NCBI GenBank assembly: GCA_036172665.1
Contig: CM069872.1
Coordinates: forward strand, 41,092,101-41,156,100
Length of the DNA: 64,000 nt
Origin: Prosopocoilus inquinatus
Lineage: Eukaryota; Arthropoda; Insecta; Coleoptera; Lucanidae
Reading direction: 5' to 3'
This document shows positions 25,501-28,263 of this stretch, piece after piece. A program made the translations under genes and the position numbers. The notes beneath the pieces were generated by a model. That model had not been told where the DNA came from and searched no databases. It worked only from the letters and a program-made list of their open reading frames with translations. Positions within the stretch are counted from its first letter, which is position 1; every line of letters begins with the position of its first letter.

Positions 25501-28263
25501 AAGTGTCACCTGTTCCAGAAGGAAGTGAATTACCTGGGGCACATTGTTAATGGAAACGGAATCGCCGTGGACCCTGTGAAGATTCAGGTGGTGAAAGACT
25601 GGCCAACTCCCACAAATAAACACCAAATAAGGAGTTTCCTTGGTCTGTGCACTTACTATCGGCACTACGTTCCTGGATTTGCAGACATTGCTAAGCCGTT
25701 AACAAAACTCACTGAAGAAGGTCGTCCATTTGAATGGGACCAACAGTGTCAAATTGGCTTTGAACAACTAAAGCAGTACTTGGTTAGTGCTCCTATTCTG
25801 AGTTATCCTCTCCCGGAAGGCAAGTTCGTCGTGGACACAGATGCTAGCAACGTTGGGATTGGTGGCGTACTCTCCCAGATACAAGAGGGGCAAGAGAAGG
25901 TGATCGGCTACTTCAGTAAAGTCCTATCAAAGCCGGAACGAAACTATTGCGTCACAAGAAGGGAATTGCTAGCCGTCGTAAAAACGATAGAACACTTCTA
26001 CAAGTACTTGTATGGTAGACGCTTCCTGCTGAGGACCGACCACGCCGCTCTAAAATGGCTTCTCCGTTTCAAGAACCCAGAAGGGCAAGTTGCACGATGG
26101 ATCGAACGACTTCAGGAGTACGATTTTGAAATTCAGCATCGGGCAGGAACTAGCCATCGAAATGCCGATGCTCTGTCGAGAAGACCCTGTGCCGAAGACT
26201 GTAAGCACTGTAGTCGTTTGGACGAGAAAGTAGCCACGACTGCGAGGACAGCCATTGTTGACGACAAATGGCAAGCCGAAGAACTGCGAAGAGACCAGGA
26301 GAACGACCCGGATTTGAAATTAGTGCTAGAGTGGAAAAGCAGGGACGCGAGGCCTACCTGGGAAGAGGTAGCACCATGTGCACCGTCCGTAAAATCATAC
26401 TGGGCGCAGTGGGACTCCATAGTGTTGGATCGTGGTCTTCTGAGACGAAGCATAGAGAATCAGGAAGGCATGGAACAGAAGACACAGTTACTGATCCCCA
26501 AGAATAGGGTGCCAGAAGTTCTGAGGGAACTTCACGATGGAACTTCGGGAGGGCATCTGGGAGTTAAGAAGACTATGGAGAAGGTGCGCGAAAGATTTTA
26601 CTGGGTGAACTGCAAGGAAGACGTAAAGGATTGGTGCAGAAAATGTGCAGTCTGCGCAGCCAGTAACGGCCCCCACAGGCGGGGTAAGGCTCCCATGAGA
26701 CAGTACAACGTTGGAAGTCCTTTTGAGAGAGTTGCCATCGATGTAGCCGGCCCGTTTCCAGAAACGAATGGTGGAAACAAGTACATCGTCGCGGTAATGG
26801 ACTACTTTAGTAAGTGGGTTGAAGCTTACGCCCTACCTAACCAAGAGGCGGTCACTATTGCGGAAGTCCTTGTCAGGGAATGGATCAGTCGGTATGGTGC
26901 ACCTATGGAACTGCATTCAGACCAAGGAAGGAACTTTGAATCGGCCTTGTTCAAGAACGTGTGTACTCTGCTCGGCGTACGAAAAACTAGAACAACTGCA
27001 CTCCACCCACAGTCGGACGGAATGGTGGAAAGGTTCAATAGAACCATCAACCGACATTTGTCCAAGGTCGTTTCCAATCATCAGAGGGACTGGGACACGT
27101 ACATCCCCCTGTTTCTAATGGCATACCGCTCATCTGTTCATGAGACAACAGGGGAGACTCCCGCGAAAGTGGTATTCGGGCGAGAGCCGAGACTGCCCTG
27201 CGACCTGAAGTTTGGTGTGAAGCCTGGCGAAGTCTCTGCCGACGAAGATTACGTGAGCAAATTACGCAGGAAAATGGATGATATCCACAACCAAGTGCGT
27301 CACAATATACAGACGGCCAGCGATCGGATGAAGGAGCACTATGACATCAACGCTCAACACGGGGGATACCAACCTGGAGCACTGGTCTGGCTTTATAACC
27401 CCCAAAGACGTCGAGGCCTCTCCCCAAAATTACAGACCTCTTGGGAAGGTCCTTACAAAGTGATGAAACGGATCAACGACGTCGTTTACCGCATCAGGAA
27501 GGTCCCCCATGGCAAACCCAAAGTAATCCACTTCAACCGGATAGCCCCTTACCATGGAGAAGCAGATGAAGGGACAGTACAAAGGGCGCAAGTTTCCGAA
27601 GTGAACTTCGAAACCTTCATGTCTCATCACGCCGAAGGAAGCAAGGCACGGTTTGGAGTGACCACGGAGAAGCAACAAGATCTCTTTAAAGTGCCACTGG
27701 AGTACAGTCTGGCCCACTGCGTAGCAGAAGACCTGAAAATTTCCAAAGGAATCGCTCAGGTGTTTAGGAAGAAATTTGGCCAAATCGAGGAGCTACGAAG
27801 ACAGCATCCCGTGGTAGGCAAGAGCTTGCAGATCATTGATTCGACGGCAGATCGGAGGCGCCACGTGCATTATTTAGTCACTAAGAAGACATCAAGCGGT
27901 AAACCTGACTATGTGACTATGTGGAGAGCCCTATATAGCCTGAGGAGACAGCTAATAGAGAACCATCAGATGAAGTTAGCCATCCCCAAATTGGGCTGCG
28001 GATTGGACGGACTAGACTGGAGAGTAATTCGAAGCATGCTGGAAGTCATCTTCCACAGAACGGGAATTGAAGTCCTAGTCTGCAGCCACCACCCACAGGC
28101 AACAGTCAGCAACAGCAAAACCGTGGACTGTTACTTCTTCCAGGTGGGAAGTTGCAAGAATGGGCCAGCATGTAGATTCCGACACCCTCCTTCAAGACTA
28201 TCACCAGGAACATTTCGAGACGAAACGTTTCTAAGAAGGGGGCAGTGTGGCGAGCCAACCTGA
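22549..28263 (+). CDS. Gag-Pol-macrodomain polyprotein, 1904 aa
   Basis: Retrotransposon polyprotein. Residues ~9-43 resemble a SAP helix-extended-helix domain; ~70-173 are about nine 11-residue repeats built on EQS(R/G)N(L/F), a likely coiled coil; ~238-400 are Gag capsid-like (FDGKSSWPNYFKQFE). No CCHC knuckle is visible. Protease has DTGA at 535-538. RT has YLDD at 949-952. RNase H has D1098, E1139, D1164 and D1207. Integrase has zinc-binding H1329, H1336, C1366, C1369, catalytic D1398, D1458, E1494 (DD35E) and a GPY motif at 1634-1636. Residues ~1710-1850 form a macrodomain of TARG1/OARD1 type: AHC at 1722-1724, KGIA and KKFG, LVTKK with K1779/K1780, GCGLD with D1820. A CCCH finger follows (C1861, C1869, C1875, H1879). 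The start ATG is the first in the leader, with aacaATGG context. The TGA lies 18 bp inside the 3' LTR. Gag and Pol are fused without frameshift or stop. The frame is intact, so it may be functional. Confidence 0.96.
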   Translation: MATRKVLLKDLKVAELKTELEERELETCGLKGALQQRLRSDLLTAGEDPETFLFEISCGPADFNKILKDEFREQSRNLDEKFQEQSGNLEKKLLEQSGNFKEELREQSRNLEEKLLEQSGNFDKLQNKLLEQSRDLDEKFLEQSRNFDEKLLEQSGNLKGEFLEQTKGLEDKLVVKISEETRNLQENVEEIIFQQDNKIKNLEQIMAGLRVFGDQPPVETLENNETRIVEGPAENSKLKIKPPTFDGKSSWPNYFKQFEAAAKANRWTASEKATSLIVALRGDAIDVLQTMPPEEQEDFDKLVNRMEMRYGQAHLTEVYHAQLRNLCQKSGESLQEFEADVARPAQLAYPTAPVEFLKCLTVQTFIDGIRDPDNQQALRMTHPKTSKNALAYALEFEAARRVSRGHVKVRAAMDFQEEEEEESANAKVGSTIKERAREYATAEDVRRIVEQVFKQKKPLELPGGRTCSQAMSKAQTGSKEATVKLSRVGAEGQTSTRIQRPPKTKANRVIFLRQLTSSVFVDVTIDDIPHTMLLDTGATKTILRPDVIKSSGRTEPTKWKLKTATGTSATVHGEVEVIITIGSTPIKHRALVADIEDEAILGMDVMCAHGFQLDLKRGVMAVNNEELVLHQRGDVAARVVLAEDVVLPSRTEVIVDAKLDGVFQDGQVIMVEPNTDDQRIGRGVLVGKMLLTAKKEVPVRLMNVNCFSVNIKKGTILGSCTMVSSISRQLETNVPEAKVPKKLWEMVMSTAQELTPDQKTKAKNLIGRYQDVFEVEDGSKGRTDVVKHKIETGEERPIRQAPRRLPLAKREEAERIIREMEKDNVIEPSSSPWASPVVLVKKKDGSTRFCVDYRLLNNVTKKDSYPLPRIDDTLDTLAGSKIFSTLDLKSGYWQVELAPEDREKTAFSIGMGLWQFTVMPFGLCNAPATFERLMETVLKGLSWTTCMVYLDDIIVVGKTFDDHLRNLEGVFQRLRGAGLKLSLKKCHLFQKEVNYLGHIVNGNGIAVDPVKIQVVKDWPTPTNKHQIRSFLGLCTYYRHYVPGFADIAKPLTKLTEEGRPFEWDQQCQIGFEQLKQYLVSAPILSYPLPEGKFVVDTDASNVGIGGVLSQIQEGQEKVIGYFSKVLSKPERNYCVTRRELLAVVKTIEHFYKYLYGRRFLLRTDHAALKWLLRFKNPEGQVARWIERLQEYDFEIQHRAGTSHRNADALSRRPCAEDCKHCSRLDEKVATTARTAIVDDKWQAEELRRDQENDPDLKLVLEWKSRDARPTWEEVAPCAPSVKSYWAQWDSIVLDRGLLRRSIENQEGMEQKTQLLIPKNRVPEVLRELHDGTSGGHLGVKKTMEKVRERFYWVNCKEDVKDWCRKCAVCAASNGPHRRGKAPMRQYNVGSPFERVAIDVAGPFPETNGGNKYIVAVMDYFSKWVEAYALPNQEAVTIAEVLVREWISRYGAPMELHSDQGRNFESALFKNVCTLLGVRKTRTTALHPQSDGMVERFNRTINRHLSKVVSNHQRDWDTYIPLFLMAYRSSVHETTGETPAKVVFGREPRLPCDLKFGVKPGEVSADEDYVSKLRRKMDDIHNQVRHNIQTASDRMKEHYDINAQHGGYQPGALVWLYNPQRRRGLSPKLQTSWEGPYKVMKRINDVVYRIRKVPHGKPKVIHFNRIAPYHGEADEGTVQRAQVSEVNFETFMSHHAEGSKARFGVTTEKQQDLFKVPLEYSLAHCVAEDLKISKGIAQVFRKKFGQIEELRRQHPVVGKSLQIIDSTADRRRHVHYLVTKKTSSGKPDYVTMWRALYSLRRQLIENHQMKLAIPKLGCGLDGLDWRVIRSMLEVIFHRTGIEVLVCSHHPQATVSNSKTVDCYFFQVGSCKNGPACRFRHPPSRLSPGTFRDETFLRRGQCGEPT
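28233..28242 (+). other. Polypurine tract
   Basis: AAGAAGGGGG ends 3 bases before the 3' LTR. This is the expected plus-strand primer site for an LTR retroelement, and it lies within the coding frame. Confidence 0.8.

Follow-up and report, generated by a model that had tools for sequence, protein, structure and literature searches.

A 64,000-nucleotide stretch of the genome of the beetle Prosopocoilus inquinatus (GenBank assembly GCA_036172665.1, contig CM069872.1, positions 41,092,101 to 41,156,100 of the forward strand; here called the window) carries a long terminal repeat (LTR) retrotransposon whose polyprotein continues well beyond its integrase, and the question raised by this locus is what the additional domain is and what it might do for the element. 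The initial annotation had described an in-frame macrodomain of the TARG1/OARD1 type after the integrase of an LTR retrotransposon with both catalytic residues kept, and each part of that description has been borne out. The domain matches TARG1 with an E-value of 3e-28, the next macrodomain being that of DarG (5m3i) at 2.6e-5, it is 36% identical to a mammalian OARD1, and the fold of a predicted model fits the TARG1/OARD1 class. K1779 and D1820 align with the columns of human Lys84 and Asp125, with the same spacing of 41 residues as in the human protein. The profile and structure checks proposed with the initial annotation returned both a TARG1 match and the fold. In Pfam the window protein stays under the gathering cut-off of the family Macro (PF01661), with no row even at E 0.1, and six of 13 scanned proteins did reach it (P0047, P0057, P0059, P0061, P0062 and P0064). 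No Pfam row for a chromodomain was obtained for the window protein, and the fold in this part of it is that of a macrodomain, though it lies at the integrase C-terminus.

The carrier is a Ty3/gypsy LTR retrotransposon, with Pfam domains of the product of its open reading frame (ORF) in the order protease, reverse transcriptase (RT), RNase H, integrase; the best solved relatives of the RT region are the Ty3 RT/RNase H chains (E 5.4e-89). Both LTRs are 325 bp long, flank positions 22449-28245 and differ by a single mismatch at the penultimate base. LTR ends of the form TG...CA, a short target site duplication and a polypurine tract are all present, the 3' LTR ending in ATA through the one substitution. 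The assignment to LTR retrotransposons in the initial annotation is supported, and the near-identity of the LTRs together with the open reading frame points to a recent insertion. The features of the element are as follows, with positions in the window and residues of the polyprotein.

22120..22123, no strand: target site duplication ATAT, left copy, in flanking sequence
22124..22448, +: 5' LTR, TGT...ACA, 325 bp, 1 mismatch in 325 against the 3' LTR
22450..22466, +: candidate primer binding site TGGTGTCAGGTGTGGGG, 1 base past the LTR, proposed from the sequence
22549..28263, +: gag-pol-macro-CCCH, one ORF of 1904 codons with its stop within the 3' LTR
22570..22668, +: N-terminal SAP domain of Gag, residues 8-40 (Pfam PF02037, E 1.2e-5)
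22711..23087, +: gag tandem repeats of 33 nt, each coding for 11 residues; a coiled coil may be formed
24109..24366, +: aspartic protease, residues 521-606 (PF13650/PF13975)
25066..25548, +: RT, residues 840-1000 (PF00078, E 1.8e-37)
25735..26121, +: RNase H, residues 1063-1191 (PF17917/PF17919)
26494..27000, +: integrase zinc-binding domain and catalytic core, residues 1316-1373 and 1391-1484 (PF17921, PF00665)
27448..27549, +: integrase C-terminal p58_C/GPY module, residues 1634-1667 (PF22938, E 6.7e-11)
27658..28086, +: TARG1/OARD1-class macrodomain, residues about 1704-1846 (similarity and predicted fold)
27883..27885, +: catalytic Lys K1779 (human K84), Lys in 81 of 82 filled alignment rows
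28006..28008, +: catalytic Asp D1820 (human D125), Asp in 83 of 83 filled alignment rows
28120..28188, +: CCCH zinc finger, residues 1858-1880 (PF00642, E 7.1e-5; E down to 8e-9 against CPSF4 fingers)
28233..28245, +: polypurine tract AAGAAGGGGGCAG, coding as well, directly preceding the 3' LTR (from the sequence)
28246..28570, +: 3' LTR
28571..28574, no strand: target site duplication ATAT, right copy, in flanking sequence

The CCCH finger probably binds nucleic acid. The SAP domain (PF02037) at the start of Gag is listed for many of the Aromia relatives as well. Neither an env ORF nor any further + strand ORF of 100 amino acids was found inside the element, which by this criterion is not errantivirus-like. 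No second copy of the element was found in the 64-kb window at E 1e-3, nor were tRNA genes or RNA families.

Conservation of the macrodomain in the element family

A search for the same fusion elsewhere had been suggested with the initial annotation. This search, made with the region, returned 65 proteins, and in 51 of them, from many species, the macrodomain lies behind the integrase, just as it does here (P0001-P0046 and P0048-P0052). The macrodomain is kept across the whole element family and is not a chance fusion. By species label, 41 of the 51 family proteins come from beetles (34 Aromia, six Molorchus and one Callosobruchus), while the two labelled Erysiphe pulchra (P0003 and P0049, on short contigs) are probably insect contamination. 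In the macrodomain trees the 17 sampled family rows form one clade (support 99/98 and 99/97). A CCCH finger lies 11-13 residues downstream of the macrodomain in 46 of the 51 proteins; it is missing in P0049-P0051, so the macrodomain does not require the finger.

Between the window and ten relatives the RT is 80-86% identical and the macrodomain 50-63%. Identity in the linkers falls to 11-45% ahead of the macrodomain and 9-22% behind it. Since similarity of the domain persists between linkers that drift, the macrodomain appears to be under selection in the family.

Short relatives were also found in the beetles Brassicogethes, Aromia, Pyrocoelia and Aquatica and in the leafhopper Macrosteles. 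Two proteins of Macrosteles quadrilineatus (P0070 and P0071) are annotated as ADP-ribose glycohydrolase OARD1-like; P0070 falls within the retrotransposon family in the tree and both look like transposon pieces. An OARD1-like annotation may therefore in some cases mark a transposon piece of this kind in an insect genome. No RT was found by phmmer in 41 of the 51 family proteins, namely the partial P0003 and 40 Aromia or Molorchus models. P0005-P0012, P0014-P0030 and P0032-P0044 (Molorchus, Aromia) pass from Gag or protease straight into the end of the integrase, the macrodomain and the CCCH finger, with the RT skipped. A spliced Gag-macro-CCCH product was considered and rejected, the borders of the skipped stretch differing among Aromia copies in a manner typical of gene predictors. 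P0003, in which the end of pol is fused to the start of gag, was likewise judged to be a model artefact.

Other polyproteins and the origin of the domain

Outside the family of the window element the macrodomain occupies several other places, each alternative position being represented by one to four records. It lies between RNase H and integrase in P0053, P0056, P0057 and P0062, and precedes the protease in P0058, P0063 and P0064, where the copy in P0064 lacks its first part. It follows the integrase with no CCCH finger in P0059, P0060 and P0065, and P0047 has tandem macrodomains after the integrase. P0054 and P0061 are macrodomain proteins in which no RT was recognised. P0055 is an RNA virus polyprotein with methyltransferase, macrodomain, helicase and RNA-dependent RNA polymerase, and its residues 755-897 form a TARG1-like macrodomain 45% identical to that of the window element over 90% of the query. 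None of these 14 matches outside the family has a CCCH finger behind the macrodomain.

The RT tree, which holds only macrodomain-bearing elements and a Ty3 outgroup and in which gain and loss are accordingly inseparable, resolves three clades. Clade A comprises P0053, P0056, P0057, P0059, P0062 and P0064 (support 88/71, or 96/95 without P0057), clade B P0058, P0060 and P0063 (100/100), and clade C P0047, P0065 and the family of the window element (95/96); P0013 and P0064 were omitted from a first RT tree and restored in a later one. The position of the macrodomain differs within clades A and B. P0056 and P0059, for example, are 67% identical in the RT and carry the macrodomain at different places.

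Macrodomain trees were built from a chosen set of 49, then 46, rows out of 198 proteins, with the degenerate second copy of P0053, P0079 and P0080 omitted from the second. In these trees the two domains of P0047 cluster with two incomplete stretches from an OARD1-like gene model of a coral (98/96 and 99/96). That model, P0081 of Acropora digitifera, contains two nearly identical partial macrodomain stretches resembling the P0047 tandem. P0047 aside, the element and virus rows fall on one side of a branch, with support of 24/0. Constraining P0047 with the clade C of the window element was rejected by the approximately unbiased (AU) test at p 0.030, this being one of four tests, uncorrected, with a clade that had itself been named from the RT tree. 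Constraining all element and virus macrodomains together was not rejected (p 0.122), nor were the constraints on clade A (0.191) and on clade C with P0047 left out (0.158). That the P0047 tandem represents a second, separate capture is supported by these comparisons, not proved, and the remaining differences of position would reflect relocation inside lineages or more captures.

The initial annotation had also suggested capture from a host gene. The macrodomain is likely to derive from a cellular gene of the OARD1 type, although the match lists, which for one search comprised the best 120 of 4342 matches, contain no arthropod OARD1 distinguishable from transposon pieces. Scans of IMG/VR with the RT piece and with P0056 found no relative; the macrodomain alignment as query found 11 loci in IMG/VR and four loci of bacterial records in GTDB. 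It is possible, though less likely than not, that TARG1-class hydrolases were acquired more than once by Ty3/gypsy elements, at no fewer than four spots in the polyprotein, as ADP-ribosylation of the proteins, cDNA ends, LTR chromatin or insertion sites of elements would generally restrict invertebrate retrotransposition and the elements would bring an eraser of their own.

Possible functions of the macrodomain

We consider it rather probable that this intact Ty3/gypsy element has acquired and selectively kept a TARG1-class domain that works as a hydrolase against host ADP-ribosylation. Its activity, substrate, timing and benefit can be proposed by analogy. TARG1 acts on ADP-ribose attached to Glu/Asp, to phosphorylated DNA ends and to thymidine; thymidine-linked ADP-ribose resists the K84A mutant and end-linked ADP-ribose the D125A mutant. 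Because the whole family retains the domain, the element probably uses it to reverse a host modification. The domain would have been captured from an OARD1-type gene of cellular (or viral) origin before the family spread across beetle species, and selection would then have retained it in the lineage. As a mono-ADP-ribosyl hydrolase tethered to the integrase C-terminus it would travel with RT, integrase and complementary DNA (cDNA). Acting in the particle, in the preintegration complex or in the nucleus, it would most likely strip ADP-ribose on Glu/Asp, DNA ends or thymidine from element proteins, from cDNA, or from the chromatin of the insertion site or LTR. Particles could then function, and integration and expression proceed, without being blocked by host ADP-ribosylation.

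Work in mammals and in Drosophila supports a bearing of ADP-ribosylation on retrotransposons. SIRT6 mono-ADP-ribosylates KAP1 and mammalian L1 is silenced as a result (PMC4695847). In Drosophila parp-1 mutants eight mobile elements were significantly changed, five up and three down; ten others, of which nine are gypsy-type elements, shifted upward but missed the false discovery rate or p threshold (PMC7712786).

Several points weigh against the proposed hydrolase role. Insects are not known to have many PARPs. The macrodomain diverges faster than the RT; the protease does so too (45-64% identical between the window and relatives, eight of the ten with data), so the speed of the macrodomain alone does not indicate an arms race. 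Where ADP-ribosylation is known to affect elements, the effect is on transcription, not on particles or cDNA. The Drosophila PARP-1 effect is perhaps indirect, via Lola or Mod(mdg4), as the authors of PMC7712786 allow, and among the four active hydrolases compared on ADP-ribosylated DNA ends the activity of TARG1 was the lowest (PMC5725667).

Among the alternatives, the domain might be an ADP-ribose reader that tethers integrase and steers integration to ADP-ribosylated chromatin or DNA breaks, much as the integrase chromodomain of chromoviruses may steer theirs. A chromodomain is a reader of histone marks, and the macrodomain sits directly behind the p58_C/GPY module, where chromoviruses carry their chromodomain. 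We regard such steering as unlikely, because the catalytic Lys and Asp would be superfluous for reading, yet both are nearly invariant, and because steering by a C-terminal tail is inapplicable to the gypsy polyproteins that have the domain ahead of the protease or between RNase H and the integrase. A metabolic or RNA-processing function appears less probable still: here the domain would clear O-acetyl-ADP-ribose, ADP-ribose-1''-phosphate (Appr-1-p) or ADP-ribosylated RNA, and the CCCH finger would bring element RNA and may substitute for a nucleocapsid knuckle. TARG1 also acts on ADP-ribosylated RNA. Consistent with this function, no C-x2-C-x4-H-x4-C motif was found in the window ORF, the finger adjoins the macrodomain in most of the family, and O-acetyl-ADP-ribose is also a TARG1 substrate (PMC5725667); the macrodomain nevertheless occurs without a CCCH finger behind it in P0049-P0051 and in the 14 matches outside the family.

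The lower identity of the macrodomain than of the RT would also suit a passenger, captured without benefit by an element that still jumps. This is very improbable given the single clade of 17 rows, the conservation of catalytic residues amid unconserved linkers and the recurrence of the macrodomain in other RT clades. A chimaera of assembly or annotation, finally, has a negligible likelihood: the ORF is unbroken, the LTRs are nearly identical, the target duplication is present, and the identical junction in other assemblies refutes it.

Precedents and implications

Human TARG1/OARD1 (C6orf130) and the bacterial DarG macrodomains act as a free enzyme or an antitoxin, whereas the window domain lies inside a retroelement polyprotein. 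Captured enzymes in such polyproteins have a parallel in the retroviral dUTPases, host-type enzymes taken into gag-pol at positions that vary by lineage, although their substrate is dUTP and not ADP-ribose. Alphaviruses, coronaviruses and hepeviruses carry macrodomains in their replication polyproteins (PMC9503650), and so have an ADP-ribose-processing domain embedded in a polyprotein as in the window element. Chromoviruses, whose integrases bear a chromodomain (PMC3605345), are likewise Ty3/gypsy elements with an extra module at the integrase C-terminus; the chromodomain is not a hydrolase, whereas the window module is of a hydrolase class.

The layout had been thought to be undescribed. For Ty3/gypsy this holds in the literature searched, with subscription journals and Repbase outside it, where no description of an element with such a macrodomain was found. 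By text search, a survey of viral NAD/ADP-ribose systems (PMC9503650) is without TARG1, OARD1 or 'transpos', PMC8672886 makes no mention of a macro domain, and in the TARG1 papers searched for 'retrotranspos' the passages concern SIRT6 and L1 or cite the SIRT6 paper, and none concerns a macrodomain within an element. For retroelements at large the claim has to be narrowed, since fish epsilon-like endogenous retroviruses have macro domain ORFs (Basta et al., 2009, as cited in the review PMC4977317). By that description these also join a retroelement to a macrodomain, but they are vertebrate and carry it as an additional ORF, whereas in the window element, a Ty3/gypsy element, it is embedded in the polyprotein. 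What is new is thus a TARG1-class macrodomain in a Ty3/gypsy polyprotein, the fish retroviruses being the prior art.

Viruses are known to counter host ADP-ribosylation with macrodomains, and a module of this enzyme class is now seen to be fixed throughout one family of genome parasites and to occur at several positions in others. ADP-ribosylation as a restriction of retrotransposons becomes directly testable as a result, and the DNA-acting members of the class, TARG1 and DarG, suggest cDNA or cDNA ends as a possible modified target. Elsewhere in the window, the ORFs at 53228-54677 and 58657-59190 resemble by eye an RT/GIY-YIG element of the Penelope type and a transposase of the mariner type.

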